Of a stretch of DNA of 64,000 nt, positions 5,216 through 21,178 are shown one piece after another. Under the pieces are notes generated by a model that did no database searches, was not told the origin of the DNA, and saw only the letters and a program-made list of their open reading frames with translations. How positions within the stretch are numbered: the stretch's first letter is position 1; each line of letters starts with the position of its first letter. Where the stretch lies: the NCBI GenBank assembly GCA_014337915.1, contig QUBU01000002.1, positions 1 to 64,000 on the forward strand, read 5' to 3'. Both the position numbers and the translations under genes were made by a program. The DNA is from Gammaproteobacteria bacterium. Its GTDB lineage: Bacteria > Pseudomonadota > Gammaproteobacteria > Steroidobacterales > GCA-2729495.

Positions 5216-6076
5216 ATGAGCGACGGGGTGGGCAAGGCTTTCGAATTCGTGCGGCAGATGGTCGCCAACCTGCCGGGCAAGGACGTGGACCTGCCCGCCT
5301 TTCCCGACGTGGTGCGGCGCCTGCAGCTGGTGCTGGCCGATCCGCAGGCCAGCGCGAAGGACCTGGTGGCCATCATCGAGTCGGAGCCGGTGCTCAGCGC
5401 GCGGCTCCTGCAGCTCGCCAACTCGGCGGCCATGAATGCCGCCGGCAATTCGGTGACCACCATCAAGCTGGCTATCAGCCGCCTCGGCTTCAACCTGGTG
5501 CGGCTCACGGCCATGAGCCATGCCATGCGCCAGATGGAACGGCAGCAGGCGCTGCAGCCGATCCGCGCCGACCTCGGCGCCATCTGGAAGGCCAGCAACG
5601 AAGTGGCGGCGATCTGCTACGTCGTGGCGCGGCGCGCCTTCGGGCGCCAGCCCGACGAGGCGATGCTCGCCGGCCTGCTCCACGGCATCGGGGGCCTGTA
5701 CATTCTCACGCAGACGCAGCGCCTGGACCCGGCGATGCGCGCCGACCCGGATTTCCAGGCGGTGCTGCAGGACTGGCAGCCGCGGCTCGGCAAGGCGATC
5801 CTCGACACCTGGGGACTGCCGGAGCGCATCGGCCTGGCGGTGGCGAGCCAGGACGAGCTGCTGAATGTCGGGCCGGAGGCCATGGAGCCGATGGCGCGGC
5901 TGCTGTCGGCGGCCAAGCTGCGCCACCGGCTGGGCGCCTGCCCGGGCCTGCGCAGCGAAATCCCGCAGGCCGACGACCTCATGCGTTCCGTGACGCTGGG
6001 ATCAGGCTCATTCCTCGATATCGTGGCGTCGAGCCACCAGGATATCGAGGAGATGCAGAGCCTGCTGGCCGTCTAG
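5216..6076 (+). CDS. HDOD domain protein
   Basis: Predicted 286-residue cytosolic protein. Most of its length is an HDOD domain: the pattern LPAFPDVVRRLQLVLADP followed by SEPVLSARLLQLANSA is the usual start of the fold. HDOD proteins are HD-like signalling scaffolds without proven catalysis, often linked to c-di-GMP output, motility or surface attachment. No GGDEF, EAL or receiver domain is attached. The ATG at 5216 is chosen because the domain begins soon after; the 71 extra residues from an upstream ATG look non-coding. It is convergent with the barrel-protein gene, with a gap of 7 bases. Confidence 0.85.
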   Translation: MSDGVGKAFEFVRQMVANLPGKDVDLPAFPDVVRRLQLVLADPQASAKDLVAIIESEPVLSARLLQLANSAAMNAAGNSVTTIKLAISRLGFNLVRLTAMSHAMRQMERQQALQPIRADLGAIWKASNEVAAICYVVARRAFGRQPDEAMLAGLLHGIGGLYILTQTQRLDPAMRADPDFQAVLQDWQPRLGKAILDTWGLPERIGLAVASQDELLNVGPEAMEPMARLLSAAKLRHRLGACPGLRSEIPQADDLMRSVTLGSGSFLDIVASSHQDIEEMQSLLAV

Positions 6077-6083
6077 GCTGCGC

Positions 6084-6761
6084 TCAGAAGCCCCAGATGA
6101 CGCTCGCGGAATAGAAGTCCGCGCCTTCGTTCTCCAGCTTGAAGTTCTCCCACAGCAGCCGTGCGCTGATCTGCGGGGTGATGTGCCAGTCGAGGCCGGC
6201 GCCGAAGCTGACGTCGATGCCTTCGTCGCTCGACTCGCAGCTGTTGGCCGCGCACCAGTTCCCGCCGTCGCTGAGCGCGGCGTTGCCGGACTGGTCGGCC
6301 ATCCAGCGAAACACGCCGATCTTGGCGAGCAGGGCGAAGTGGTTTTCCATGAAGGGCAGCGAGCCCACCGCGGACACGCCGAAGCCGGTGACGTCGACCT
6401 TGCCGGAACCGGAGAACGAACTCGTGCCCTCGCCGCCGTCGTAGGTGCCCGAGGCGCTGGTCTCGGCCGAGCCGAAGTCGATGTAATGGCCTTCCAGGGC
6501 GAAATAGTCGTTGAACTGGAAACCGCCGAAGACCTTCCAGCCGGTGTCGCTGTCATCGACATTGATGCTGGCGGAGTCCGGGTTCTGTGCGTGGATGGCA
6601 TCGGCCAGCGAACTCTCGGTGCCGATTTCGTCATCGAAGCTGCTGTTGGCAACGCCGGCACCGACATACCAGCCGGCCTGAGCGGCGAGCGGCAGCAGTG
6701 TCCCCATCCCCAGCGCCAGGCCGATCGCGGTCGGCAGCGCCTTCTTCTGCAGTGCTTTCAT
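6084..6761 (-). CDS. outer-membrane beta-barrel protein (OmpW/OmpA-barrel type)
   Basis: A 225-residue precursor. Residues 1 to about 29 form a Sec signal peptide (basic start, hydrophobic core, ending AAQA before GWYVGAG). The rest alternates aromatic and polar residues as in small 8-strand barrels, and the protein ends in Phe (SVIWGF), the signal for assembly into the outer membrane. A cysteine pair (CAANSC) sits in one predicted loop. Function unknown; homologues are often described as opacity-like surface proteins. The start is preceded by a GGGGGGAG ribosome-binding site. Confidence 0.75.
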   Translation of the reverse strand: MKALQKKALPTAIGLALGMGTLLPLAAQAGWYVGAGVANSSFDDEIGTESSLADAIHAQNPDSASINVDDSDTGWKVFGGFQFNDYFALEGHYIDFGSAETSASGTYDGGEGTSSFSGSGKVDVTGFGVSAVGSLPFMENHFALLAKIGVFRWMADQSGNAALSDGGNWCAANSCESSDEGIDVSFGAGLDWHITPQISARLLWENFKLENEGADFYSASVIWGF

Positions 6762-6806
6762 GGACGACTCCCCCCTGTGGAGCGGGCAAAAAGCAACACT
6801 TGCCCA

Positions 6807-6836
6807 AGTATCACAGAATCGCCGTGGCGTTCACAA
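6807..6836 (-). promoter_or_regulatory. possible sigma-70 promoter for the barrel-protein gene
   Basis: Read on the minus strand, TTGTGA (6831-6836) and GATACT (6807-6812) are separated by 18 bases, about 45 bases upstream of the ATG at 6761. The region is the only AT-richer patch between the barrel gene and hemL. Confidence 0.45.
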
Positions 6837-6876
6837 CCACGGGCCGGGGGGCAGCCGTGGACCTGTCCGGCCCGGG

Positions 6877-8166
6877 TCAATCCCGTTCCGCGTCCGCAGC
6901 GGCCAGTGCATCGCCAAGGTGGTCGATGTCGGCGGCGGTGTGCGCGGCCGACAGGAAGCCGATCTCCATCGGGCTCGGCGGCAGGTAGATGCCGGCATCC
7001 AGCAGGCGCCGGAACAGCTGCGGGTAACCTGCGCTGAGGCCGGCATCGCAGTGCGCGGCCGAGCGCAGCATACCGGGCCGGGCCGGGCCACCGGGCAGCC
7101 AGAACAGCGAGCCGACGCGCGCGCAGTGCAGGCCGAGTGCGCGGATGCGCGCTTCGAGCCTTGCGCCCAGCGTTTCCAGCTGCCGGTAGATGACGCCAGA
7201 CTCGAGCAGCTGCAGTGTTGCCAGTCCCGCACGCATGGCCAGCGGGTTGGCGCTGAGCGTGCCGGCCTGGTACACGCGGCCCAGCGGTGCCAGCTGGGCC
7301 ATCAGTTCGCGGGGGCCGGCAAAGGCGCCGACCGGAAAGCCGCCACCGATGATCTTGCCCCAGGTCACCAGATCCGGCCTGATGCCGGTGGCTGCCGCCA
7401 TGCCGCCGAAGCCGACGCGGAAGCCGCTGATGACCTCGTCGAAGATCAGCAGGCTGCCATGGCGCGAGCAGAGTTCGCGCAGCCGCTGCAGGAACTCCGG
7501 TCGCTGCGGCAGCAGGCCATGGTTCGCCGGCAGCGGCTCGATGATGGCCGCCGCCAGCTGCGGGCCATGGCGGGCGAAGCAGTCCTCGAGCGCCGCGACG
7601 TCATCGAGCGGGGCGACCACGGTATCGGCCGCCACGGCGGCGGGCACGCCGGCGCTATCGGCGATGCCGGTGGTTGCCAGGCCGGAGCCGGCGCGGATCA
7701 GCATGGCATCCGCATGGCCGTGGTAGCAGCCGGAAAATTTCAGCAGCCGCTCCCGGCCGGTGATGCCGCGTGCCAGGCGCAGCGCCGACATCACCGCCTC
7801 GGTCCCGGAATTCACGAAGCGGATGCTTTCGGCCCAGGGCAGGCGCGCGCTGATGAACTCCGCGAGTTCCAGCGAGTAAGGCTCCGCGGTGCCATAGCTC
7901 CAGCCGTCGGCGAGCGCGCAGCTGGCGGCCGCCGCCACCTGCGGATGCGCGTGGCCGAGGATCAGCGGCCCGAAGGCCATGCAGAAATCCAGCAGGCGCC
8001 GCCCCTCGCTGTCCTCGAGGCAGGCGCCCGCGGCCCGGCGCGTGAAAAACGGCCGGCCACCCACGGCGGCCAGCGCCCGCACCGGGGAATGCACGCCGCC
8101 CGGCGTGACTGCCAGCGCGCGGGCGAACAGCTCTTCGGCGCTGGTCCCGGGATCCATGGCGGCCAT
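6877..8166 (-). CDS. hemL: glutamate-1-semialdehyde 2,1-aminomutase
   Basis: PLP enzyme that converts glutamate-1-semialdehyde to 5-aminolevulinate, the second step of the C5 tetrapyrrole pathway. At 429 residues it has family length. The Schiff-base lysine is Lys271 in WGKIIGGGFPVGAF, and the cofactor aspartate is Asp243 in FDEVISGFR; the early block TPGGVHSPVR is also typical. It is the last gene of the operon cysG-cysK-hemA-hemC-hemB-hemL, 10 bases after hemB. A second in-frame ATG (residue 4) is equally possible as the start. Confidence 0.95.
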   Translation of the reverse strand: MAAMDPGTSAEELFARALAVTPGGVHSPVRALAAVGGRPFFTRRAAGACLEDSEGRRLLDFCMAFGPLILGHAHPQVAAAASCALADGWSYGTAEPYSLELAEFISARLPWAESIRFVNSGTEAVMSALRLARGITGRERLLKFSGCYHGHADAMLIRAGSGLATTGIADSAGVPAAVAADTVVAPLDDVAALEDCFARHGPQLAAAIIEPLPANHGLLPQRPEFLQRLRELCSRHGSLLIFDEVISGFRVGFGGMAAATGIRPDLVTWGKIIGGGFPVGAFAGPRELMAQLAPLGRVYQAGTLSANPLAMRAGLATLQLLESGVIYRQLETLGARLEARIRALGLHCARVGSLFWLPGGPARPGMLRSAAHCDAGLSAGYPQLFRRLLDAGIYLPPSPMEIGFLSAAHTAADIDHLGDALAAADAERD

Positions 8167-8176
8167 CCGCAGGCCT

Positions 8177-9160
8177 TCAGGCGAGCAGGGTGCGCGCCCG
8201 GCGCGCCGCGTAGCTGATGATCATGTCGGCGCCCGCGCGCCGCAGCGCGATCCAGGTCTCCCGTTGCAGGCGCGCCGCATCTCCCAGGCCGTTGGCGGCC
8301 AGCAGGTCGAGCGCCGCCTGCTCGCCGCTGGTCTGGTAGGCCGCCCAGGGCAGCGGGATGCTGGCGGAAAGATCCCGCAGCACGTCCAGGCAGGGCAGGC
8401 CCGGCTTCACCATGAGGATGTCCGCACCTTCGTCGGCATCGCGCTGCGCCGAGCGCCGCGCATCCGTCGGCCGCGCCGGGTCGATCTGGTAACTCGCGCG
8501 GTCCTGCAGTGCACCGCCGGCGGCCGGTGCGGAATCTGCGGCCAGGCGGAACGGGCCATAGAACGCCGAATGGAACTTCGCCGCGTAGCTCATCAGCAGC
8601 GTGCGCCCGAGGCCGGCGGCTTGCAATGCGGTGCGGATGGCGCCGATGCGCCCATCCATCATGTCGCTCGGCGCCACGCAATCGACCCCGGCCGTGGCGC
8701 AGGCCAGCGCGTAGTCGACCAGCGCCGCCACCGAGGCGCCGTTGTCGACGTGGTCGCGCGCCTCGTTGAGCAGCCCGCAATGCCCGTGGCTGGTGGCCGC
8801 GCACAGGCAGATATCGGCGGCCAGCCAGATGCCGCTGCCGAAGCGCCGGCGCAGCACTTCGATCTGTGCCACCGTGAAGCCGTGGTCGAAACTCTGCTCA
8901 CGACGGGTTTCCGGCACGCCGAACAGCAGGAACTTGTCCACGCCGGCAGCGAGATCGGCCTCCACCTGCCGCGCGAGGGACTCCGGCGTGTCGCGCCACA
9001 CGTCGCTGAGGCCGGGCACCGGCTCGCGTGCGGCCAGGCCCTCGACCACGAACAGCGGCTGGATGAGCTTGCGCGGGTCGAGGTCGACCTCGCGCACCAG
9101 TTCGCGGGTCGCGGCGGCCAGTCGTGTGCGCCGCAGGCTCAGGCCAGCCATGAGCGCCAC
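8177..9160 (-). CDS. hemB: porphobilinogen synthase (5-aminolevulinate dehydratase), zinc-type
   Basis: Joins two 5-aminolevulinate molecules into porphobilinogen. At 327 residues it is normal in length. Both active-site lysines are visible: Lys195 in SYAAKFHSAFYGPF and Lys252 in ILMVKPGLP. The metal site is the cysteine form: Cys118, Cys120 and Cys128 in the segment DICLCAATSHGHCG, which indicates zinc at the catalytic site rather than the Asp-rich magnesium form. The start overlaps the end of hemC by 22 bases, so the two are translationally linked. A second ATG at residue 4 is an alternative start. Confidence 0.95.
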   Translation of the reverse strand: MALMAGLSLRRTRLAAATRELVREVDLDPRKLIQPLFVVEGLAAREPVPGLSDVWRDTPESLARQVEADLAAGVDKFLLFGVPETRREQSFDHGFTVAQIEVLRRRFGSGIWLAADICLCAATSHGHCGLLNEARDHVDNGASVAALVDYALACATAGVDCVAPSDMMDGRIGAIRTALQAAGLGRTLLMSYAAKFHSAFYGPFRLAADSAPAAGGALQDRASYQIDPARPTDARRSAQRDADEGADILMVKPGLPCLDVLRDLSASIPLPWAAYQTSGEQAALDLLAANGLGDAARLQRETWIALRRAGADMIISYAARRARTLLA

Positions 9161-10677
9161 TCCTGTCGGGAAGGGAAGGGGTGCAGGTTGCCGACACCCT
9201 GCGCGCGCAGCGCCTGGAACGTCTTGCCCGGCCCGCAGGCATGGTGGGCATCGGCCGGCAGCCAGGCGCGCAGCGCCTGGAACTGCGCGGCGCTGCCCCA
9301 GTAGAAATGCGTGCTCTGCGCGAGCCGCGCGCGTATCGTCGCCAGCGCCACCGGATCGCTGGGGCTGTCGATCGCATAGGTGGCCTGCACCCGGCCGACG
9401 CCGCTGTCGTGCCAGCTGGCCACCGCGTCCTCGCGTGTCATCACCGTCCAGTCCGCGAGTGGCGGCAGTCGCAGCACGGCTGCGGCCAGCAGCGGCGTGA
9501 TCGCGCGGAACCCCAGGTTGTCCGCGCAGCCCTCGACCCAGACCCCGCGTCGCGCCAGTTGCCGCCAGCTTTCCACGCCGCTGACCCAGACGCGGGTATC
9601 CGGCGGCATCGGAGCCGCGCCGGGCCAGGCGCGCCAGTGCGCCAGGAACAGTGCTCCCGGCTTGCCGGAGGAACGCCTCGCGATTCGCCGCAGATGGCTC
9701 GCCCCGGCCCAGTCGCTGCCGTCCCAGGCGCGCGCTCCTGCCGGTGGCGGCGGCCTGCGCCAGGCGAGGCGGTGGTACGGGCGCGATGCGCCGCTGCCCG
9801 CCATGAACAGCAGCGTGCCGCAGTTCGCATCGGGCAGGCTGCTCGCCGCGAAGCCGTCGCGCTCGCCCGCCGGCAATGCCGCCGCCAGGGAGAGTTCACG
9901 CGCCACGCGGCGGGCCGTGGCGGCATCGTGCAGCTGCGCCAGCAGCCCGGCGACGCGTGCGTCGCCGTCGCGGCAGTCGATGGCGAGCGCGCCCTGGCCG
10001 GCCGCCGTCGGGCAGGCCGACAGCGGCAGCAGCATCAGGCGCGTGTCCTGCAGCAGCGGCGCCAGTGCCGCATGGCCATCGCGGTCGCCCCAGAGGCGCG
10101 CCAGGCCGGCCAGCGCCAGCACCGCACCGTCCAGTGCCTGTGGATGTGCGCGCGGCAGGCGCAGCCGCGCCAGGCGCTGCTCCACCGGGCCACGCAGCGG
10201 CGCGAACGTCAGTTGCGGTGGCTGTGCACCCAGCCGCGGCAGTGCTTCGCGCAGGAAGCCGCCGGCCAGCGTGGCGCGCCGGGCGGACGAAGTGCCGATG
10301 CGCAGCGGCTGGTCGCTGGCGAGCAGTGCCGTTGCATCGGCGCGGAACAGCACGACGTCGTGCGGATGCTCGCGTGCCGGCACGGCGGCCTGGCGGATGC
10401 CGGGCCGCGGCTCCAGCGGCAGGTCCTTCATCGAGTGCACGCAGAAGTCCACCTGCTCCGTGAGCAGGGCCCTGTCGAGCTCGGCCGAAAAAAATCCGGG
10501 GTCGCCCACCGCGGAGAGCGGCGTGTCACGATCGCGGTCGCCGCGGGTCTCGACGCTGACGAGTTCCAGCGGCTGGCCAGGATCGACGGCATGCAGGGCC
10601 CGCAGCACCAGGCGGCTCTGCGCCACGGCCAGCAGCGAACCGCGCGTACCCAAGCGTAATGTAGAGCGCTGCGCCAT
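9139..10677 (-). CDS. hemC: hydroxymethylbilane synthase with C-terminal uroporphyrinogen-III-synthase-like domain (HemC-HemD fusion)
   Basis: Predicted 512 residues; ordinary HemC is about 310. Residues 5-265 are HemC-like: LGTRGSLLAVAQS, TRGD, catalytic Asp85 in VHSMKD, GTSSARR, and AAGQGALAIDCR. From about residue 300 to 512 the sequence resembles HemD: WTVMTREDA, FYWGSAAQFQAL and ACGPGKTFQALRAQG match its conserved blocks. A residue-by-residue alignment with E. coli HemC (recalled) needs no gap around the cofactor site. It puts Glu272 (LPAGE) where Cys242 of LEGGC anchors the dipyrromethane cofactor; the nearest cysteine is Cys286. The ATG at 10677 starts the HemC domain directly and lies 5 bases after hemA. 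The protein may be a bifunctional enzyme or have altered chemistry. Confidence 0.8.
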   Translation of the reverse strand: MAQRSTLRLGTRGSLLAVAQSRLVLRALHAVDPGQPLELVSVETRGDRDRDTPLSAVGDPGFFSAELDRALLTEQVDFCVHSMKDLPLEPRPGIRQAAVPAREHPHDVVLFRADATALLASDQPLRIGTSSARRATLAGGFLREALPRLGAQPPQLTFAPLRGPVEQRLARLRLPRAHPQALDGAVLALAGLARLWGDRDGHAALAPLLQDTRLMLLPLSACPTAAGQGALAIDCRDGDARVAGLLAQLHDAATARRVARELSLAAALPAGERDGFAASSLPDANCGTLLFMAGSGASRPYHRLAWRRPPPPAGARAWDGSDWAGASHLRRIARRSSGKPGALFLAHWRAWPGAAPMPPDTRVWVSGVESWRQLARRGVWVEGCADNLGFRAITPLLAAAVLRLPPLADWTVMTREDAVASWHDSGVGRVQATYAIDSPSDPVALATIRARLAQSTHFYWGSAAQFQALRAWLPADAHHACGPGKTFQALRAQGVGNLHPFPSRQEWRSWLA

Positions 10678-10682
10678 CGGCT

Positions 10683-11597
10683 TCAGCCTGCCGCCCGATG
10701 GGGCCAGGAGGTAGTCGCCGCAGCGGCCGTTGCAGCCCATTCCCGGGCGCGCTGCCGGCAGTCCTGCCGGGCGCGTGCGACCTGCAGCGAGCGGATGTTC
10801 TGCTGCGAGCGGCGCAGGTCGAAGACGTCATCGAGGTCGTGGCTGTGGATTCCTGCAGGCCATGGCTGTCCGCTGCCACGCCGCCGGCCGAGGTGGACCA
10901 GCGACCTTGCGGTGCCGGCAGCCTCGAGCCAGTCGAACCAGCGGCCGTCGTTCGCCGGGTCCACCGGCGTGGTGATGACGACGTGGCGGGCCCACCGGGC
11001 AGCCTCAGCGCCGGCCTCGGCCGCGAACACGCGCCCCGCCGCGACGAAGGCGGCACCCGGCGGCCGGCGGCTCCAGGTGCCGATCGACTGGGCACGGAAG
11101 AACGGCAGCAGTGACTGCGCCAGCTCGCCCGCGCCGACGACGAGCAGCGGCTCCGCGGGCGCAGCGCGCAGCAGGCGTCGCACGAGACTACCGTAGGAGG
11201 CGCCGCCGATGTCGTCGAGGTGTGTGTTGCGGATGGCGCGCGTGTCCCTGACCAGCCCGGTGACGACTGGAGCGAGCGCGTCCGCCGCGGCGGCCGGGGC
11301 GTTGTCCCGGAACGTCTCCCAGGCACGGCGGAACTGGCCAAAGACATTGGTCTCGCCAGGGATGGCGCTTTTCAGGCCGCAGCTGAATTCCAGCAGGAAG
11401 GCGTAGGCGGCAGCGCCATGGCGGGTCTCCGGCGGGGTGAGTGCCGCTATGGTGCTGGCGGCGGCCTGGCCGGCGCCGACCAGCAGGCTGCGCAGGCAGG
11501 TGTCGATGCGCCAGATGGTTGCGAGGCCGACCCCGGCAGGGACCGGTGCCACGCCCTGCGGCCAGTGGCCGACCACCAGCGGCGCGGGCGTACTCAT
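10683..11597 (-). CDS. hemA: divergent, short glutamyl-tRNA reductase
   Basis: A 304-residue HemA homologue; canonical enzymes have about 420. It would reduce glutamyl-tRNA to glutamate-1-semialdehyde using NADPH. Retained features are Cys34 in DTCLRS (equivalent of the catalytic Cys in STCNR), the SCGLKSAIPGETNVFGQ block (SGLDSLVLGEPQILGQ in E. coli), the VRDTR segment, and a nucleotide-binding VVGAGELA (about 153-160). It ends soon after the NADPH domain, so the long C-terminal dimerisation helices are missing. The conserved VDIAVPRD segment is replaced by VHLGRRRG. The start overlaps cysK by 4 bases. Divergent enough that activity is uncertain; its position ahead of hemC, hemB and hemL supports the call. 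Confidence 0.75.
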   Translation of the reverse strand: MSTPAPLVVGHWPQGVAPVPAGVGLATIWRIDTCLRSLLVGAGQAAASTIAALTPPETRHGAAAYAFLLEFSCGLKSAIPGETNVFGQFRRAWETFRDNAPAAAADALAPVVTGLVRDTRAIRNTHLDDIGGASYGSLVRRLLRAAPAEPLLVVGAGELAQSLLPFFRAQSIGTWSRRPPGAAFVAAGRVFAAEAGAEAARWARHVVITTPVDPANDGRWFDWLEAAGTARSLVHLGRRRGSGQPWPAGIHSHDLDDVFDLRRSQQNIRSLQVARARQDCRQRAREWAATAAAATTSWPHRAAG

Positions 11598-12571
11598 CCG
11601 CGCTGCCCCGCCGCGGCTTCGATGCCGGCGAGCCAGGCGTCGTCGGAGCCGTCGCTGATGTCGTCGAGCAGGAAGGTCGAGAGATAACGCTCGCCGGTGT
11701 CGGGCAGCATCGCGAGCAGCACCGAGCCCGGCGTGGCCTGCCGTGCCACACGCAGCGCCGCAGCGAGCGTGGCACCGGCGGAAAGGCCGACGAAGATGCC
11801 TTCCTCGGCGGCGAGGCGGCGCGCCGTGGCCTTGGCTTCCTCGTCGTTGACTCGCACCAGCTCGTCATGCAGCTCGCGGTTCAGCACCTCGGGCAGGAAA
11901 TCCGGCGTCCAGCCCTGGATGCGGTGCGGTTTCCACTCGGCACCGCCGAGCAGCGAGGCGCCCTCGGGTTCGGCGGCGATGATCTTCACCTCGGGGCGCG
12001 CCAGGCGCAGCACTTCGCCGGCGCCGGTGAGCGTGCCACCGGTACCCCAGCCGGTCACCCAGAAATCCAGCCGTCGGCCGGCGAAGTCCCGCAGGATCTC
12101 CGGGCCCGTGGTCTGGCGGTGGTACGCCGGATTGGCCGGGTTCTGGAACTGGCGCGCGAGGAACCAGCCATGCTGCCGGGCCAGTTCTTCCGCCTTGCGC
12201 ACCATGCCGGTGCCGCGCGCTGCCGCCGGCGTGAGGATCACCTTCGCGCCATAGGCCCGCATGATCTTGCGGCGCTCGATGGAGAAGGTCTCCGTCATCA
12301 CGGCGACGAAGGGATAGCCGCGCGCGGCGCAGACCATGGCGAGTGCGATGCCGGTGTTGCCCGAGGTGGCCTCGACCACCGTCTGCCCGGGCTTCAGCAG
12401 GCCGCGGCGCTCGGCATCGTCGATGATGGCGAATGCCAGGCGATCCTTGACCGAGCCGGCCGGATTGAATGCCTCGACCTTCACGTAGAGCTCCACATGC
12501 TCCGGCGCGATGCGGTTGAGGCGCACCACCGGTGTTTCGCCGATGGTGTCGAGGATGCTGTCGTGAATCAT
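11594..12571 (-). CDS. cysK: cysteine synthase A (O-acetylserine sulfhydrylase)
   Basis: PLP enzyme making cysteine from O-acetylserine and sulfide. The 325 residues show the family marks: Lys42 in NPAGSVKDR (Schiff base), TSGNTG (69-74) for substrate binding, and GWGTGGT for phosphate binding (more often GIGTGGT). CysK and CysM are close relatives; the overall pattern favours CysK. It overlaps cysG by 4 bases upstream and hemA by 4 bases downstream, placing sulfide use and siroheme synthesis on one transcript. Confidence 0.93.
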   Translation of the reverse strand: MIHDSILDTIGETPVVRLNRIAPEHVELYVKVEAFNPAGSVKDRLAFAIIDDAERRGLLKPGQTVVEATSGNTGIALAMVCAARGYPFVAVMTETFSIERRKIMRAYGAKVILTPAAARGTGMVRKAEELARQHGWFLARQFQNPANPAYHRQTTGPEILRDFAGRRLDFWVTGWGTGGTLTGAGEVLRLARPEVKIIAAEPEGASLLGGAEWKPHRIQGWTPDFLPEVLNRELHDELVRVNDEEAKATARRLAAEEGIFVGLSAGATLAAALRVARQATPGSVLLAMLPDTGERYLSTFLLDDISDGSDDAWLAGIEAAAGQRG

Positions 12572-13974
12572 GAGGCTCTCCTGTCAATCTGTTGAGTTGG
12601 TCCGGCCAGCCTGGCTGCCAGCGATACCGTTGCGCCGACGAGCAGCAGTGCCGGTGCGCCAGGCCGGCTGTCGGTGGCTGCCCTGGCAGCGATGTTACCC
12701 AGCGTACCGGTCAGTACCGTCTGGCCGGGCAGCGTGCCGTCGCGGATGACGGCGGCAGGCGTACCGGGCCGGCGCCCGTGGCGCTGCAGTTCGGCGGCGA
12801 CTTCGGCGATGCGCGCGCCACCCATATAGATGGCCAGCGTCGAGTCCAGTGCCGCGAGGCCGCGCCAGTCCGTGCCGTTGCCGTCGCTGGCACCGGAGGC
12901 GGTCACCAGGGTCACCGCCGTGGCCAGGCCGCGGTGCGTCAGCGGAATGCCGGCCGCGGCGCCACAGGCGCTGGCCGCCGTGATGCCGGGGATGATCCCG
13001 AAGGGCAGGCCGGCCGCCGCCAGCGCCAGCGCTTCCTCGCCGCCGCGGCCGAAGACCAGCGGGTCACCACCCTTCAGGCGGCAGACGCGGGCCCCGGCGC
13101 GTACCCGGCTCACCAGCAGTTCGTTGATCACCTGCTGGCTGGTGGACAGGCGCCCGCCACGCTTGCCGACGTTGACCAGTTCGGCCTCGCGGCGCGCGGC
13201 GCGCAGCAGCTCCGGCGCGACCAGGCGGTCGTGGATCACCACATCGGCTTCCTGCAGTGCCCGCAGGCCGCGCACCGAGATCAGCCCGGGATCGCCGGGG
13301 CCGGCTCCCACCAGCCAGGCGCGACCGCTGGCAGCGGTGGGAGGCTCACCAGCGAGGGCGCCTGCCGCCAGGGCATCGGCGGTCGCAGGGTCGCCCTGCA
13401 GGACGGCATCGGCCGCGGGACCCGAGAGCAGGTCCTCCCAGAAGGCGCGGCGCGCGGTGATTGCAGGCAATGCGTCGCGGACCCGGCCGCGCCATTGGCC
13501 GGCCCAGCGGGCCAGGGCGCCGATCCCTGCCGGCAGCCATTGCTCCAGCCGCTGGCGCAGCAGGCGCGCGAGCACCGGAGCATGCCCACCGCTGGAGATG
13601 GCGACCATGACTGGCGATCGCTCCACGACCGCGGGGAATATGAAGGAAGAGGCGTCGCCGTCGTCGACGACATTGCAGAGCCGGTACTGTGCTGATGCGG
13701 CGGCGGCCACCGCGGCATTGATGTCGCGATCATCCGTTGCCGCGATCACCAGCAAGGATTCCGCGACCAGGGAGGCCGTGAATGGCCGCTGTTCGACCCG
13801 CAGTGCGCCCGCGCGGGCCAGCTCCCGGATGCCGGCATGCAGTTCGGGTGCGTTGACCGTCACCCGCGCACCCGCCCGCAGGAGCTCGCGGGCCTTGCGC
13901 AGCGCCACCACGCCACCGCCGACCACCAGGCAGGGCTGGTGCGCGATCCTGGCGAACAGCGGGAAGTGGTCCAT
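12568..13974 (-). CDS. cysG: siroheme synthase (precorrin-2 dehydrogenase/ferrochelatase + uroporphyrinogen-III methyltransferase)
   Basis: Trifunctional enzyme turning uroporphyrinogen III into siroheme, the cofactor of sulfite reductase. The 468 residues include an N-terminal NAD-dependent dehydrogenase/ferrochelatase part (VVGGGVVALRKA, about 17-28), with Asp104 (NVVDD) and Ser128 (ISSGG) falling at the same numbers as the E. coli catalytic residues. The methyltransferase part runs from about residue 218 (LVGAGPGDPGL) and contains VGKRGG, RLKGGDPLVFGRGGEE and GITAASACGA. The ATG at 13974 starts the first domain and has AGGA upstream; the extra 61 residues from a more distal ATG are AT-rich leader. 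First gene of the six-gene operon. Confidence 0.95.
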   Translation of the reverse strand: MDHFPLFARIAHQPCLVVGGGVVALRKARELLRAGARVTVNAPELHAGIRELARAGALRVEQRPFTASLVAESLLVIAATDDRDINAAVAAAASAQYRLCNVVDDGDASSFIFPAVVERSPVMVAISSGGHAPVLARLLRQRLEQWLPAGIGALARWAGQWRGRVRDALPAITARRAFWEDLLSGPAADAVLQGDPATADALAAGALAGEPPTAASGRAWLVGAGPGDPGLISVRGLRALQEADVVIHDRLVAPELLRAARREAELVNVGKRGGRLSTSQQVINELLVSRVRAGARVCRLKGGDPLVFGRGGEEALALAAAGLPFGIIPGITAASACGAAAGIPLTHRGLATAVTLVTASGASDGNGTDWRGLAALDSTLAIYMGGARIAEVAAELQRHGRRPGTPAAVIRDGTLPGQTVLTGTLGNIAARAATDSRPGAPALLLVGATVSLAARLAGPTQQIDRRAS

Positions 13975-14061
13975 GCGGGGTAATCCTGGCCCGGAGGGCC
14001 ATTCGTGGGCCGCCACGATAGGCTGCGCCGCCCGCCAGGAAAAAGATTGATGATTTCTGGT

Positions 14062-14084
14062 CTTATTCGTTATAGGAATAAGAG
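14062..14084. promoter_or_regulatory. perfect inverted repeat in the cysG/cysB divergent promoter region (candidate CysB operator)
   Basis: TCTTATTC (14062-14069) and GAATAAGA (14077-14084) are perfect 8-bp arms with a 7-base spacer (GTTATAG). The repeat sits in the AT-rich, non-coding 212-bp gap between divergent cysG and the CysB-family gene. Its AT-rich LysR-type dyad form fits an operator for the adjacent regulator; that link is inference. Confidence 0.6.
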
Positions 14085-14115
14085 AGAAACGGAAAAATCT
14101 ACGCGCGGCCTGACG

Positions 14116-14141
14116 CTGCTGTAAACAGCAGGTTATATACT
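14116..14141 (+). promoter_or_regulatory. second inverted repeat and -10-like box before the CysB-family gene
   Basis: CTGCTGT (14116-14122) and ACAGCAG (14125-14131) are perfect arms 2 bases apart, followed by TATACT at 14136-14141, 46 bases before the ATG at 14187. It could be an autoregulatory site overlapping the promoter. No good -35 box is visible. Confidence 0.4.
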
Positions 14142-14186
14142 GCGCGGCCCCCGTCACCCGGGATGCCGGCGCCCGCCGAGGCTGAC

Positions 14187-15194
14187 ATGACGCTCCAGCA
14201 ACTCAAGTACCTGCTCGCCATCGCCGACAGCGGCCTCAACATCACGGCTGCGGCCGAGAAGCTCTTCACCAGCCAGCCCGGCATCAGCAAGCAGCTGAAG
14301 CTCCTCGAACAGGAACTCGGCGTGCAGCTGTTCACCCGCAAGGGCAAGTCGCTGGCGGCCATCACGCCCGCGGGCCGCGATGTCATCGCCCGCGCCCGCA
14401 AGATCGCCCGCGAGGTGCAGAACATCCGCAGCCTGGCGCGCGAGATGTCCGGCGAACAGGAAGGCACGCTCGCCATCGCCACCACGCACACCCAGGCGCG
14501 CTACGTGCTGCCCGATGTGCTGCGTGTGTTCCGTGAGCGCTACCCTGGCGTCAATCTCGAACTCCACCAGGGCACGTCCGAGCAGATCGCCGAGCTGGTT
14601 GCCGCCAACCGCGTGGACTTCGCCATCGCCACCGGGTCGCTGCAGCTGTTCTCCGGCCTGACCATGCTGCCCTGCTACCAGTGGGACCGCATCATCCTCG
14701 TGCCGCGCGGTCATCCGCTGACGAAGGTGCCCCAGCCCATCGACCTCGCCACGCTCGCGGAACACCCGCTGATCACCTACGTGTTCAGCGCCACCGGCGA
14801 GTCGTCCTTCAAGGAGGCCTTCGCCGCGCAGGGCCTGGAACCGCAGGTGGTCTTCACTGCGCGCGATGCCGACATCATCAAGACTTACGTGCGCATGGGC
14901 ATGGGCGTGGGCGTGGTGGCCTCGATGGCCTTCGAGCGCGCCGACGAGAAGGACCTGGTGGCGCTGGAAGCCGTGGGCCTGTTCCCCCGCGTCACCACCT
15001 GGCTGGGGTTTCGCAGGGACAGCGTGCTGCGCGGCTACATGGTGGACTTCGTGTCGCTGTTCTCGCCGCAGCTGACCGGCGACCGGGTGCGCCGCGCCGC
15101 TGCGCTGGCGACCCAGGCCGAGGTCGACGCGCTGCTGGCGGACCTGAAGCTGCCGCTGCGCGCCAGCGGCCAGGCGCCCGCACGCCCCGGGTGA
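14187..15194 (+). CDS. cysB: LysR-family regulator of sulfur assimilation, CysB/Cbl type
   Basis: Predicted 335-residue DNA-binding activator that senses sulfur status. The N-terminal winged helix-turn-helix (about 3-62, TAAAEKLFTSQPGISKQLK) and the ligand-binding domain follow CysB closely. Thr100 and Thr102 in ATTHTQARYVLP coincide in number with E. coli CysB sulfate-contact residues, and Thr149 in ATGSL also matches. It could be Cbl instead, a close paralogue. The ATG at 14187 follows GAGG and begins MTLQQLKYL, the family start; an upstream in-frame ATG at 14163 is less likely. Divergent from the cysG operon and convergent with cysH. Confidence 0.9.
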   Translation: MTLQQLKYLLAIADSGLNITAAAEKLFTSQPGISKQLKLLEQELGVQLFTRKGKSLAAITPAGRDVIARARKIAREVQNIRSLAREMSGEQEGTLAIATTHTQARYVLPDVLRVFRERYPGVNLELHQGTSEQIAELVAANRVDFAIATGSLQLFSGLTMLPCYQWDRIILVPRGHPLTKVPQPIDLATLAEHPLITYVFSATGESSFKEAFAAQGLEPQVVFTARDADIIKTYVRMGMGVGVVASMAFERADEKDLVALEAVGLFPRVTTWLGFRRDSVLRGYMVDFVSLFSPQLTGDRVRRAAALATQAEVDALLADLKLPLRASGQAPARPG

Positions 15195-15208
15195 AGGCCG
15201 TCGCCAGG

Positions 15209-16012
15209 CTACAGCCCCGACAGGTTGATCTCGTGCAGGCCGCACTCGCGCTTCAGCCCGCCGAAGCGCGTTTCATCGATATGACCGACTTCCTGCAGCG
15301 GCCGCGTGCTGTGGGCGTCGCCGATGGAAACGTAGCCCTGCTGCCATAGCGGATGGTAGGGCAGGCCGTTGGCTTCGAGGTAGCGGTGCACGTCGCGATC
15401 GCTCCAGTCGGCGATCGGATGCACCTTCCAGCGTTCGCCGCCTGACCAGTCGAGGATCTGCACCCCGGTGCGCGTGCTCGCCTGGCTGCGGCGCAGGCCG
15501 GCGAACCAGGTGCCCACCGCCAGCTGCCGCAGGGCCCGCTCCATGGGCTCGACCTTGTTGTCGCGGTTGTAGGCCTCGATGCCGGTGAGCCCCTGTTCCC
15601 AGCGCCGGCCGAAGCGCGATTCCTGCCAGGCAGGACTGAGTTCGCTGCGGTAGATCCTGAGGTTGAGGTCGAGCCTGGACACGAGGTGGTCGACGAACTG
15701 GTAGGTCTCGGGAAACAGGTAGCCGGTGTCGATGAAGATCACCGGAATCCCGGGTCGCAGGCGGTTGACCAGGTGTAGCGACACCGCCGCCTGGGCGCCG
15801 AAGCTCGAGCTCAGCACATGCTCGCCCGGCAGGTTCGCCAGCGCCCATTCGATGCGTTCCTCGGCCGGGCGCCCGGCGAGCAGCCGGTTGCAGTGCGCGA
15901 CGGCGTGCCGCTGCGGGTCCCCCGTGCCACTGGCATGCAGTTCGATGGCTTCCGCCAGCGAGGGCAAGGGCGGAAGGGGATCGGTGATGCGCTGGGCGCT
16001 CGAGGCTGACAT
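15209..16012 (-). CDS. cysH: phosphoadenosine phosphosulfate (PAPS) reductase
   Basis: Reduces PAPS to sulfite with thioredoxin or glutaredoxin in assimilatory sulfate reduction. The 267 residues contain the nucleotide loop SSSFG (68-72), [12 protein letters not shown], the WFAGLRRSQ block and the catalytic Cys257 in KRECGLH. The paired cysteines that bind the iron-sulfur cluster in APS reductases are absent: the corresponding stretch reads [14 protein letters not shown] is therefore the expected substrate. The ATG at 16012 is chosen over two upstream ATGs because GGAG precedes it and the family starts near here. The sulfite it makes would be used by a siroheme enzyme, linking it to cysG. Confidence 0.92.
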
Positions 16013-16120
16013 GGTGGCTGCTCTCCGGCAGGGGCTGCGCCCGGCCATTGCCGGGACCTTCGTTGATGGCCTTGCGCGGATAACGTACAAAGAAGCCCGC
16101 GCGCCGGGAACGTCGATGTC

Positions 16121-16136
16121 GTTATCCTGCTATAAC
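16121..16136. promoter_or_regulatory. inverted repeat upstream of cysH (candidate CysB site)
   Basis: GTTAT (16121-16125) and ATAAC (16132-16136) are perfect arms with a 6-base spacer, in the gap between divergent cysH and the exported aminotransferase. The core resembles the dyad upstream of cysG (both contain TTAT and TATA elements), so the same regulator may bind. Short arms make this tentative. Confidence 0.4.
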
Positions 16137-16180
16137 CCGGTCGCATGAACCCGCGGATCGCCACCGGAGGAGCTGCTGCC

Positions 16181-17299
16181 ATGACCGTTGTCGTCACCCG
16201 TCGCGCCCTGATCCACGCCGCGCCGCTGCTGGCCGGTGCCGTATCGCTCGCCGGCCTGCCGCGTCCGGCGCCGGCGCAGGCCCCCGCAGCCGCACGGCAG
16301 GCCATGACAGGCATCCGCCTTTCGGGAAACGAGAATCCCTACGGGCCGGGGCCGGCGGCGCGCAATGCCATCGCGGCGGCGGTCGGCGACAGCTGGAAGT
16401 ACCCGATCGCCGAGGAGATGGCGCTCAAGGCGCAGATCGCCGAGCACGAGGGGCTCACGCCGCGCCATGTTCTGATCGGCGATGGCTCCTCGGAAATCCT
16501 GCATCTCGCCGGGCTGCTGGCCGCCGCGGACCAGGGCGAGGTACTCACCGCCGTGCCGACGTTCAACGTCACGGCCGCGCATGCCAGGGCCATGGGCGCC
16601 GCGGTGCGCGAGGTGCCGCTCGATGCACGGATGACCTACGACCTCCCGGCGCTCAAGGCTGCGGTCTCGCCGGCGACGCGGCTCATCTATATCTGCAACC
16701 CGAATAATCCGACCGGCACCATGCTGCCCGGTGCGCAGCTGCGGGACTTCATTGCCGGGCTGCCGCCCGCGGTGACGGTGCTGGTGGACGAGGCCTACCT
16801 GGAGCTCGCCGCCGATGTCCGGGCGGAATCCGTCGCAGCGCGTGTCGCCGCCGATGGCAACGTGATCGTGGCGCGCACCTTCTCCAAGCTCCACGGGCTC
16901 GCCGGCCTGCGCATCGGCTACGCGCTGGCGCGGCCGGACATCATCGAGCGCATGGCGCGGCTGAAGCTCACCGTGGCGAGCAGCCTGGGCCTGGTGGCCG
17001 CGGCGGCCAGCTACGCCGACCTGAAGTTCCAGGCCGAGAGCCGCGAGCGAATCGCCGAGGGGCTGGCCATCACCACGGCCGCGCTCGACGAGCTGCAGCG
17101 GCCGCATACCGAGACCCGCGGCAACTTCGTATTCTTCGATACCGGCAAGCCGGCAGGGGAGTTCCTCGGCGCCATGCGCCAGAAGGGCTTTGCGCTCGGC
17201 CGCCCGTTCCCGCCCTACACGAACTGGTGCCGGGTCAGCATGGGCACCGTGGAGCAGATGCGCGCCTTTGCCGCAGCGCTTCGCGCGCACTACGCCTGA
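16181..17299 (+). CDS. exported HisC-like PLP aminotransferase (Tat-type leader)
   Basis: A 372-residue class I/II aminotransferase related to histidinol-phosphate aminotransferase. PLP contacts are Asn176 in NPNNPTG, Asp203 in VDEAYLE and Schiff-base Lys236 in RTFSKLHGLAGLRIGY. Unlike HisC, it has a leader: VTRRALIHAAPLLAGAVSLAG followed by an APAQA-type cleavage site, with twin arginines at residues 7-8. It therefore looks like a Tat substrate exported with its cofactor already in place. The ATG at 16181 has a GGAGGAG site 8 bases upstream; the ATG at 16145 has none. The substrate is unknown, and no his genes are nearby. Confidence 0.82.
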   Translation: MTVVVTRRALIHAAPLLAGAVSLAGLPRPAPAQAPAAARQAMTGIRLSGNENPYGPGPAARNAIAAAVGDSWKYPIAEEMALKAQIAEHEGLTPRHVLIGDGSSEILHLAGLLAAADQGEVLTAVPTFNVTAAHARAMGAAVREVPLDARMTYDLPALKAAVSPATRLIYICNPNNPTGTMLPGAQLRDFIAGLPPAVTVLVDEAYLELAADVRAESVAARVAADGNVIVARTFSKLHGLAGLRIGYALARPDIIERMARLKLTVASSLGLVAAAASYADLKFQAESRERIAEGLAITTAALDELQRPHTETRGNFVFFDTGKPAGEFLGAMRQKGFALGRPFPPYTNWCRVSMGTVEQMRAFAAALRAHYA

Positions 17300-18385: not shown

Positions 18386-18433
18386 TGACCATGCGTGCAC
18401 GATTTATCGCGTTGCATGCACTGGGGGATACGC

Positions 18434-21178
18434 ATGAAGCGCAATCATTCGCTTGCCGGCCGCAGTGTCGGGCTGGCCCTGTCGGCCGTGGCGGCATTGG
18501 CGCTGTCCACCGAAGCCTGGTCGCAGATCGACGAAATCGTCGTCACCACGCGCAAGCGCGAGGAAGACCTGCAGCAGGTCCCGGTCGCCGTGCAGGCGAT
18601 CACCGCCCAGGACATCGAGCGCAAGGGCCTGAACACCCTGCAGGACGTGGTCAAGCAGTCCTCCAGCGTCATCCTCGACCAAGGCTTCATCCCGCAGGAC
18701 ACACGCATCGTGGTGCGTGGCCTGTCACCGACCCGCGGCCGCCAGAACATGGCGGTGCTGATCGATGACATCGACATCTCCAGCGAATCCATCGGCACCT
18801 CGGGCGGCTCGCTGCTCATCAACCCGGAGCTGTTCGACCTGGAGCGGGTCGAGATCATGAAGGGGCCGCAGAATGCGCTGTACGGGCGTTCCGCATTCGC
18901 CGGCGCCATCAACTACATCACGAAGAAGCCGGGTGACATCTTCGAAGCCAGCGCCGGCACCGACATCGGCTCCGATGGCCAGCTGATGCTCAGGGGCAGC
19001 GTCAGCGGGCCGCTGGCCGATGGCCTCGACGCCGGTGTCACCGCCATGCACTGGGACCACGACGGGTTCTACACCAACAGCTACACGGGCCAGCGTACCG
19101 GCGGCAAGGACGGTACCGGGGTCGCCGGCACCCTGGTCTGGCACGCGACCGATACCCTGAAGCTGACCGGCCGCATCGAGAACCTCAACGACCATTTCGA
19201 CGTCACGCCCTACGTCATGATCCGCTTCCCGACCGGCTCGGTGCCGAACCCGGCGAAGCCGCAGTTCAACGCCAATTTCCCGGTGCAGCGCACGGCCGCC
19301 AACGGCAGCGCGGTGTGGTGTAATCCGGCCTGCCCAGGGGCTCCGGGGACGCTGGCGCCCGTCATCACCACCGCAGGCTTTACCGGCTTCGTGCCCGGCG
19401 CGAAGGGCAAGATTCCGGATGCGGATTCGCAGATCGTCACGCTCAGCGAGGATTCGACCACCTGCCCGGACACCTATCCCGCGACGCTCGCGGGTTGCAG
19501 CAACTTCCCCGGCACCGACCGCGACGTCACGCGCTTCACCCTGACGCTCGACTGGGAGGCGGGTCCGGTGGACTTCAAGTCGCTCAGCCACTATGCGACG
19601 GCTGACTCGAACCAGATCGAGGGTTCGGAAGAGGTCAGCGCCGCCACGGCCAGCACGGTGGCCGTCGCCCGCTTCAAGAACGAAACCGACCTGCTGAGCC
19701 AGGAATTCCGGGTGCTGTCGAATGATGACGGGCCGATCAGCTGGGCGGCCGGCGCCCTGTACTGGCGCGAGACCAGCCGGTCCGAGGATGGCGCCGGCAC
19801 CTGTTACAACTACCAGGGTTCCCCGGGGCCGCTGACCGGCATCTGCGGACCCTACCTCAAGAACATCGTCGATACCGGGCTGCTGCCGCTCGGTTCGGTG
19901 ACGCCGCTCGCCGACCCCAGCCGGGTGCCGCTCAACCCGATGCTCTGGGACCGCGACACCGACCATTTCTCCGTCTATGGCCTGGTGGAGTGGCAGTTCC
20001 TGGAGCAGTGGAAGGTCGCCTTCGAGGCCAGGCAGACCTGGGAGCAGCTGCAGCTGCAGGGCCCGAACCGTGGCAATGCGCTCTGGGACCCGGGTGGTGT
20101 CTACCCCTGCGGGCTGGCGCCACCCTTTACCGCACGCTGCCCGTCCATCGGGCCAGGCACGGTCGACGTCGATGGCGCCGGACCCGGCGGCTTCAGCACC
20201 TACGCGGCCGGGCTGACCTCCAGGAGCGCCGGCACCGTGGATGACCAGTTCTTCGCGCCGAAGGCCACCCTGACCTGGACGCCCAGCGACGAGATGCTCT
20301 ACTACTTCTCCTGGGGCGAGTCTTACAAGCCGGCCGGAATCTCGCCGTTTACCGGTGGCGCCGGTGCCTTCGATCCGGTGGGCAACAGCTTCAAGCAGGA
20401 GAAGCTGCAAACCTGGGAACTCGGCGCCAAGACCAGCTGGCTGGACCGCCGCCTGATCGCCAACCTGACTGGCTTCTTCGAGGACTTCAAGAACAAGCAG
20501 GTCGGCACGCAGGTACTGGTTGGCGGCATCCTCGTACCGCGCACCGTCAACGCCGGCCAGGCCGAGGTCTGGGGCACGGAGCTCGAGCTGACCTGGTTCG
20601 CCACCGACAACCTGCACTTCAATCTCGCCTATACCTGGCTGGATGCGGAGTACACCAGCTACCTGAACAAGACCAGTGCCGCAGCGACCATCGGCTACGT
20701 GGGCAACTGCATTGCCACCGAGGCGAGCCGGCCGACGCCCATTGCCGCGGGTCCCTATGCCGGCCAGCTGCCCTCAGTCTGCGTGCTCGACTATTCGGGC
20801 AACGATCTGGAAGGGGCGCCGGAGAATTCGCTGGTGGGTGGTGCGCACTACCAGCATCCGCTGGTGGGCGGGACCGACTGGTTCGTGGAAGGCGACTTCC
20901 AGTTCCAGGACGAGCGTTTTACCTCGTCCGACAACCAGATCATCCTGCCGTCCTACTGGCTGTTCAACTTCCGCGCCGGCATCAGCAACCAGCAGTGGGA
21001 CGTCGTGGCCTACGTCGACAATGCCTTCGACGACGACACCTTCCGCACCGGCTTCTCCGATGTCGACGCACCGACTTCGCAGACCGCCGGCGGGCAGTTC
21101 TTCAACCATGCCACGGTGATCATGCCGGATCCGCGCACCTACGGCCTGCGGGTGAACTACCGCTTCGGCGCCGACTAG
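18434..21178 (+). CDS. TonB-dependent outer-membrane receptor
   Basis: A 914-residue outer-membrane transporter precursor. After a signal peptide (about residues 1-31, ending EAWS) comes the TonB-box region DEIVVTTRKREEDLQ. The plug domain (about 45-165) includes QDTRIVVRGL and ERVEIMKGPQNALYGRSAFAGAINYIT, the standard plug signature. The rest is a large 22-strand barrel ending YGLRVNYRFGAD. It would take up a bulky substrate using TonB energy; the substrate is unknown. The ATG at 18434 follows GGGGGA and is preferred over the ATG at 18395. A strong terminator follows. The neighbouring Tat-exported enzymes suggest it feeds a periplasmic pathway. Confidence 0.9.
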   Translation: MKRNHSLAGRSVGLALSAVAALALSTEAWSQIDEIVVTTRKREEDLQQVPVAVQAITAQDIERKGLNTLQDVVKQSSSVILDQGFIPQDTRIVVRGLSPTRGRQNMAVLIDDIDISSESIGTSGGSLLINPELFDLERVEIMKGPQNALYGRSAFAGAINYITKKPGDIFEASAGTDIGSDGQLMLRGSVSGPLADGLDAGVTAMHWDHDGFYTNSYTGQRTGGKDGTGVAGTLVWHATDTLKLTGRIENLNDHFDVTPYVMIRFPTGSVPNPAKPQFNANFPVQRTAANGSAVWCNPACPGAPGTLAPVITTAGFTGFVPGAKGKIPDADSQIVTLSEDSTTCPDTYPATLAGCSNFPGTDRDVTRFTLTLDWEAGPVDFKSLSHYATADSNQIEGSEEVSAATASTVAVARFKNETDLLSQEFRVLSNDDGPISWAAGALYWRETSRSEDGAGTCYNYQGSPGPLTGICGPYLKNIVDTGLLPLGSVTPLADPSRVPLNPMLWDRDTDHFSVYGLVEWQFLEQWKVAFEARQTWEQLQLQGPNRGNALWDPGGVYPCGLAPPFTARCPSIGPGTVDVDGAGPGGFSTYAAGLTSRSAGTVDDQFFAPKATLTWTPSDEMLYYFSWGESYKPAGISPFTGGAGAFDPVGNSFKQEKLQTWELGAKTSWLDRRLIANLTGFFEDFKNKQVGTQVLVGGILVPRTVNAGQAEVWGTELELTWFATDNLHFNLAYTWLDAEYTSYLNKTSAAATIGYVGNCIATEASRPTPIAAGPYAGQLPSVCVLDYSGNDLEGAPENSLVGGAHYQHPLVGGTDWFVEGDFQFQDERFTSSDNQIILPSYWLFNFRAGISNQQWDVVAYVDNAFDDDTFRTGFSDVDAPTSQTAGGQFFNHATVIMPDPRTYGLRVNYRFGAD

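Follow-up and report, generated by a model that had tools for sequence, protein, structure and literature searches.

What does an operon do that joins the early genes of tetrapyrrole synthesis to genes of cysteine assimilation, and does its cell have any other way to make tetrapyrroles? We asked this of a minus-strand run of six genes, cysG-cysK-hemA-hemC fusion-hemB-hemL (13974-6877), in a stretch of 64,000 nucleotides (the window) from a gammaproteobacterium of the order Steroidobacterales (assembly GCA_014337915.1, contig QUBU01000002.1, positions 1 to 64,000). The original prediction, made from the sequence alone, had read the operon as a sulfur-controlled siroheme supply line, probably running in parallel with a housekeeping heme pathway of its own genes. 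Our analysis makes it likely that the operon is instead a pathway cut down to siroheme supply, set in a cysteine-assimilation locus, and the only one for tetrapyrroles found in what is predicted to be a heme auxotroph. Its HemC lacks a feature by which the family is defined, the cysteine that holds the dipyrromethane cofactor.

Gene content of the operon

Open reading frames (ORFs) and family scans bear out the predicted six-gene layout, its coordinates and its five junctions, which measure -4, -4, +5, -22 and +10 bases:

12568-13974, minus strand: cysG, trifunctional siroheme synthase (NF007922, 527 bits against a cut-off of 400; Pfam domains)
11594-12571, minus strand: cysK, cysteine synthase A (TIGR01139, 419 bits against a cut-off of 351)
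10683-11597, minus strand: hemA, short glutamyl-tRNA reductase of 304 residues (motifs, Foldseek match to 1gpj, hhalign)
9139-10677, minus strand: hemC with a C-terminal extension of ~190 residues, putative hemD (TIGR00212, 166.4 against 164)
8177-9160, minus strand: hemB, porphobilinogen synthase (NF006762, 324 against 297)
6877-8166, minus strand: hemL, glutamate-1-semialdehyde aminomutase (NF000818, 510 against 398)

The cysG start was taken at M62 of the ORF at 12568-14157, and that of the hemC fusion at 10677, which is M22 of the longest ORF and lies near the starts in relatives. Apart from hemA, each operon gene is clearly above one or more curated cut-offs; against TIGR00713, HemL scores 476.5, below the cut-off of 527.3. 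Family scans find both the methyltransferase and the dehydrogenase/chelatase domains in CysG. Judged from these assignments, HemA and HemL would make 5-aminolevulinate, HemB would convert this to porphobilinogen and the HemC fusion would carry it to uroporphyrinogen III, its extension presumably acting as HemD. CysG would then convert uroporphyrinogen III to the siroheme needed by the NADPH sulfite reductase CysJI, and CysK would consume sulfide. Heme for the cytochrome oxidases would come from outside the cell, presumably by import.

HemA is called a glutamyl-tRNA reductase because of its motifs, fold and context, despite weak family scores: 24.4 against an NCBIfam cut-off of 209.55, and 26.5 and 27.4 with Pfam GlutR_N, where the cut-off is 27. 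The TC.R motif, with the catalytic cysteine, is present in all 13 aligned HemA rows (12 genomes, including the window's), as is PGE(T/S)N..GQ or a near variant. The protein has the catalytic-cysteine motif, the GE..(I/V).GQ motif and the NADP-binding domain of a glutamyl-tRNA reductase. With hhalign it reaches 93.6% against E. coli HemA, in an alignment that stops at residue 250 of 418. Its AlphaFold2 model (predicted local distance difference test, pLDDT, 86.2) ends at the C-terminus in a single long helix and has as its first Foldseek match 1gpj, a glutamyl-tRNA reductase (E 1.8e-9, template-modelling score 0.56). No dimerisation domain was recognised in a Pfam scan of the 304 residues. An order-wide search of 246 genomes gave strong matches to this short HemA in 33 of 40 genomes of the window's family, in G038 (from another family) and in five genomes of family f11; weak matches in eight further genomes are probably to canonical HemA.

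The ~190-residue extension of HemC is conserved among relatives. Siroheme requires the III isomer of uroporphyrinogen and no other HemD was found; hence, we infer that the extension is the best candidate for the HemD role. The hemD label that the original prediction gave to this half of the protein is unconfirmed, since Pfam, hmmsearch, hhalign and comparison with PDB sequences detected no HEM4/HemD homology in it, and a profile of ten HemD proteins of the order plus E. coli HemD gave nothing significant.

Tetrapyrrole genes of the genome and the family

We searched the whole genome, a 2.72-Mb assembly, for tetrapyrrole genes. It yielded a single hemA, also with the E limit raised to 1, one hemB and one hemC. 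No HemD exceeded the cut-off genome-wide, weak HEM4 matches reaching at most 15.2 bits against 27.5, the strongest in a 248-aa frame. Uroporphyrinogen decarboxylase (HemE) and ferrochelatase had no match in the genome. AhbD, of the route to heme through siroheme (the AHB route), did not exceed its cut-off of 500 either (best in the window's genome, G000, 54.8 bits), nor did it in any of 60 sampled genomes; AhbA-C were not searched. A 204-bit AhbD match in G029 was rejected as a sign of that route, as it is the NirJ of a heme d1 cluster. Six matches to the COX1 family indicate that the cell uses heme. CysI (787 bits, cut-off 756.55) and CysJ (663.9, just below 668.15) are encoded side by side on the window's contig. 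The operon is the only route to uroporphyrinogen III that was found, and the consumer that was found is sulfite reductase.

The siroheme supply line of the original prediction accordingly fits the operon, and the parallel housekeeping heme pathway is unsupported: a search for second copies found none of hemA, hemB, hemC or hemD (a second hemL was not searched for), and neither hemE nor ferrochelatase. HemA and HemC are indeed divergent, as had been noted; the idea of specialised copies is unsupported, hemA, hemB and hemC of the operon being the sole copies found. The original prediction had also held that the operon would be no more than the housekeeping pathway if the genome had no further hem genes and there was no response to sulfur. 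That does not apply to the operon, because the heme-making steps were not found while heme-using oxidases are present.

To see how far this pattern extends, we sampled 60 relatives, 37 from the window's family (G000-G036) and 23 from other families of the order. The HemC fusion occurs in 31 of the 37 family genomes (none in G003, G005, G010, G014, G018 and G026). Full-length HemE (>290 bits) was found in 6/37 family genomes (G002, G004, G014, G026, G029, G034) versus 20/23 outgroups, with short matches only in G003 and G006; strong ferrochelatase matches (>200 bits) were found in 4/37 (G011, G025, G027, G034) versus 20/23. COX1 is present in 35/37 family genomes. The siroheme reductase domain, which is common to sulfite and nitrite reductases, is present in 35/37 (31/31 genomes with the fusion, 4/6 without it) and in 8/23 outgroups; the two family genomes without a match to it, G005 and G010, likewise have no HemC fusion. 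Three genomes assembled as single contigs, G006 and G007 (same genus; 99-100% complete) and G013 (95%), carry the fusion and have no full-length HemE or ferrochelatase, and because they agree, assembly gaps are not the general cause.

The HemE-like genes of G002, G004, G014, G026 and G034 (loci L062, L063, L064, L070 and L065, respectively) show 59-79% identity in those pairs that were compared, and ~40% to E. coli HemE; TIGR01464 was above its cut-off in both of these loci that were scanned. A TonB receptor adjoins them in G002, G004, G034 and G014, and was unmatched in the G026 stretch. G014 and G026 have three HemE-like copies each and no HemC match. We suspect that these genes do something other than serve a de novo heme pathway; they possibly act in porphyrin uptake or processing.

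The neighbourhoods of the relatives follow the same plan. Directly upstream of hemA, the 27 siroheme-type sequences have cysK (18), cysG (5) or a contig end (4); cysK is absent between cysG and hemA in five relatives. The ten longer loci all have cysB on the far side of cysG, and nine of them have cysH on the far side of cysB; the tenth (L079) begins at cysB. Since the gene order is repeated in siroheme-type relatives, it is not due to chance. Ratios of nonsynonymous to synonymous substitution rates (dN/dS) in four genome pairs were 0.31-0.39 for hemA, 0.26-0.35 for hemCD (the hemC fusion), 0.15-0.25 for hemB, 0.19-0.33 for hemL, 0.32-0.39 for cysG and 0.10-0.15 for cysK; cysB gave 0.09-0.13 (three pairs) and cysH 0.20-0.23 (two pairs). 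These values point to purifying selection on the operon genes. One further copy of the operon, L037, comes from a record titled Bacteroidota (KLAP184) and has identities to the window equal to those of the Pseudomonadota record L038; it is probably a mislabelled bin.

The short HemA and the HemC fusion also occur together in a second, heme-type arrangement. The f11 loci carry short hemA, hemCD and hemE, with hemN in 4/5 (G139 and G165, two of these genomes, are almost the same). In the three f11 loci whose ORFs were listed, hemCD and hemE are separated by two ORFs, of which the second is a response regulator in the one locus scanned (L120:7819-8532). Unlike the window's operon, the f11 loci have no match to cysG, cysK, cysB or cysH within the stretches retrieved. 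Within the window's family, G029 has hemCD-hemB-hemL-histidine kinase-response regulator-hemE-hemN (L061:5505-13525), and G021 has cysG-cysK-hemA-hemB, with hemCD-hemL at another place on the same contig. In G029 there is also a heme d1 cluster (L114:9013-17710), which includes another short hemA, a cysG match, nirJ above its cut-off and two siroheme-decarboxylase-like genes that fall below theirs.

Cofactor cysteine of the HemC fusion, and competing explanations

Published accounts have the dipyrromethane primer of HemC bound through a thioether to a conserved cysteine (PMC3945110, PMC3738108), in E. coli C242 (PMC7242693), and describe how movement of the cofactor cysteine draws the growing chain past the catalytic aspartate (PMC8561815). 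We aligned 29 fused HemC proteins, of which 28 come from genomes of the family and one from G038; three of the 32 genomes with the fusion were left out, G009 (match statistics nearly those of G007) and G011 and G019 (fusion split across contigs). Ten active-site residues (R11, Q19, K83, D84, R131, R132, R149, R155, R176 and Q198) are present in 29/29. The cofactor cysteine is absent in 27/29, the window's protein included, and present only in G021 and G029; two of the 27, G032 and G036, have a cysteine at another place in the same loop. All 29 canonical HemC controls (19 from the order, nine from other named genomes, and a second HemC contig of G008) have C242, as do all five f11 homologues. 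In a tree of 34 HemC sequences, with the root placed at the midpoint, seven Cys-keeping sequences are split from 27 Cys-less ones with support of 100/100. Because canonical HemC carries the cysteine, a single loss is the simplest reading of this tree.

For the HemC fusion, the 32 best Foldseek chains are all hydroxymethylbilane synthase (HMBS), with E from 4e-22 to 3e-18; the model is confident over most of residues 1-270, though not at the end of domain 3, and poor beyond ~270. The alignment holds other cysteines. One in CP(T/A)AxGQG is present in 22/29 fusions and shifted by two residues in three more, and is close in sequence to the active-site residue Q198; another, in WVEGC, is present in 28/29. 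Both are also found in the Cys-keeping heme-type clade, which disfavours either as a newly arisen replacement; they look ancestral, and may nonetheless have been recruited to that role. A cysteine at E. coli position 78 is confined to the Cys-less clade and present there in 20/27. The matched part of NF002202, an NCBIfam model that we take to be that of chlamydial HemC, covers 241 positions and stops before the cysteine in heme-type proteins; a Cys-less precedent in chlamydial HemC is possible. A 5.2-kb contig of G008, L075 (G008:C42), has a canonical, Cys-bearing hemC adjoining a match to the methyltransferase half of cysG, and is possibly a stray contig.

The most likely reading is that a low-flux HemC would hold its primer without the C242 thioether, non-covalently or on another residue. 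That a whole clade of HMBS enzymes works without a thioether-anchored dipyrromethane cofactor, following confinement to low-flux siroheme synthesis in heme auxotrophs, we put forward tentatively, as a proposal with not quite an even chance of being right. A primer that is still covalent and has moved to another residue, whether the Cys that precedes the GQG motif or one in the C-terminal extension, is on present evidence rather unlikely. The frequency of the CP and WVEGC cysteines, and the closeness of the former to Q198, speak for it. Against it, both are shared with the Cys-keeping clade, G033, G036 and G038, all without C242, lack the CP cysteine too (though G036 has one at another place in the loop), and the position-78 cysteine, though confined to the Cys-less clade, reaches only 20/27 there. 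Decay of the HemC half into an inactive protein, with the operon as a relic, is quite improbable. The lost residue is one described as conserved, and hemA, hemCD and cysG evolve faster than cysK and cysB, as would be expected of decay; however, dN/dS is well below 1 (0.26-0.39 for hemA and hemCD), the ten active-site residues are invariant, gene order is retained across genera, the fusion co-occurs with the siroheme reductase domain, and no other hemC was found.

Two further explanations bear on the pathway as a whole. A sulfur-controlled extra set of copies beside a housekeeping pathway would account for the position of the operon next to cysB, cysK and cysH and for the divergence of HemA and HemC, but we regard it as highly unlikely, and as contradicted in the present assembly, given the single copies of hemA, hemB and hemC and the failure to find hemE and ferrochelatase, both here and in most family genomes. 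Alternatively, the operon could be the first half of an ordinary heme pathway whose later steps are unassembled, too divergent or routed via siroheme. The draft state of the assembly, the HemE-like or ferrochelatase genes of some relatives and the heme-type operon of G029, with its hemE and hemN, are in keeping with this. It is nevertheless improbable, since the single-contig genomes agree with the window's, the same HemE and ferrochelatase searches were each positive in 20/23 outgroups, and the best AhbD score is far below its cut-off.

Several observations weigh against a siroheme-only pathway with a HemC that does without the C242 thioether, the reading that we prefer. The assembly is 96.4% complete and in 35 contigs. 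G034 alone among the sampled family genomes has both full-length HemE and strong ferrochelatase; a HemE-like gene is present in G002, G004, G014 and G026 and HemE in G029, and ferrochelatase in G011, G025 and G027, with weak ferrochelatase matches (≤34 bits) in ten more family genomes, five of them above the Pfam cut-off of 27. A siroheme-reductase-type domain occurs without the fusion in G003, G014, G018 and G026. G021 retains C242 although no HemE was detected in it. In addition, the 29 fusions show no conservation of the E. coli HemC residues K55 and K59, and the extension has no detected HEM4/HemD homology.

Known systems, regulatory region and neighbouring genes

In the clostridial cysG-hemACDBL cluster, a siroheme gene is followed by hemA, hemC, hemD, hemB and hemL, an order that the present operon shares, and uroporphyrinogen III is made without heme synthesis. 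The operon described here differs in belonging to a proteobacterium with heme-copper oxidases, in the insertion of cysK, in its place beside cysB and cysH, in the fusion of hemC to an extension and in its short HemA. Its HemC resembles E. coli HemC, the canonical hydroxymethylbilane synthase, in fold and in the ten active-site residues, and differs from it in the cysteine missing at the C242 position and in a fused extension whose fold is unassigned. The heme-type operon of f11, with the same HemA and fusion, has kept C242 (5/5) and carries hemE. Heme auxotrophs of natural habitats are the subject of PMC11139205 and, reportedly, of Kim et al. 2021.

In Leptospira interrogans, HemC reportedly has HemD activity, so that one protein carries the reaction to uroporphyrinogen III (PMC3945110), much as proposed for the fusion here with its putative HemD extension. 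Heme auxotrophy is described as common among uncultured bacteria in two sources (PMC11139205, PMC10477116), the first of which scores a pathway completeness of <50% as auxotrophic. The window's organism is, like those auxotrophs, an uncultured bacterium, predicted to lack heme synthesis; unlike them, it retains the upper pathway, apparently for siroheme only. The word siroheme is absent from the main text of PMC11139205. Among the literature matches listed, no title or beginning of an abstract reported a siroheme-only respiring heme auxotroph or a Cys-less HemC, with subscription literature mostly outside the coverage.

Textbooks give the covalent dipyrromethane primer as a hallmark of HemC. 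A natural Cys-less clade with Cys-keeping sisters offers a direct way to test whether covalent anchoring is needed. The arrangement suggests that in respiring bacteria siroheme synthesis and heme auxotrophy can be uncoupled. Genomes that keep a siroheme-only upper pathway may be misjudged by surveys based on pathway completeness, and a heme requirement may help in culturing the window's family.

Upstream of cysG, the divergent CysB-type regulator and the nearby cysH of the original prediction were both found:

13975-14186, no strand: divergent cysB-cysG intergenic region (conserved block TATATAACC and a weaker TTAT...ATAA block)
14187-15194 (about), plus strand: cysB-type LysR regulator (NF009326, 435.7 bits, cut-off 436)
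15209-16090, minus strand: cysH, 3'-phosphoadenosine-5'-phosphosulfate (PAPS) reductase domain (PF01507, 177 bits)

The TATATAACC block is exact in 7/11 aligned loci, has one mismatch in three and is not at that place in L079. In several loci it is followed by a GTTAC-like stretch and TGTCAA, and in some it can be read as a sigma-70-like promoter that faces cysB and has an inverted repeat in the spacer; the TTAT...ATAA block lies closer to cysG. A scan of 6000-16300 gave about what shuffled sequences give, with one promoter-like match (0.4 expected) and three terminator-like matches (3.1 expected). The sole promoter-like match (14125-14096) lies within the cysB-cysG region and points towards cysG. 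Sulfur control of the operon through CysB is plausible, with the conserved footprint between cysB and cysG as its support.

Near the cys locus, the window encodes a TonB-dependent receptor (18395-21178) that scores below cut-off with every model given here, best with a siderophore-receptor model (143.8 of 223.5) and less with a heme-receptor model (109 of 317). Further along, 37679-63991 is a large flagellar cluster, with FlhA, FlhB, FliR, FliK, a FliI-type ATPase, FliH, FliG, FliF, FliD and flagellin identified by Pfam, together with a sigma-54 regulator and a sensor kinase.

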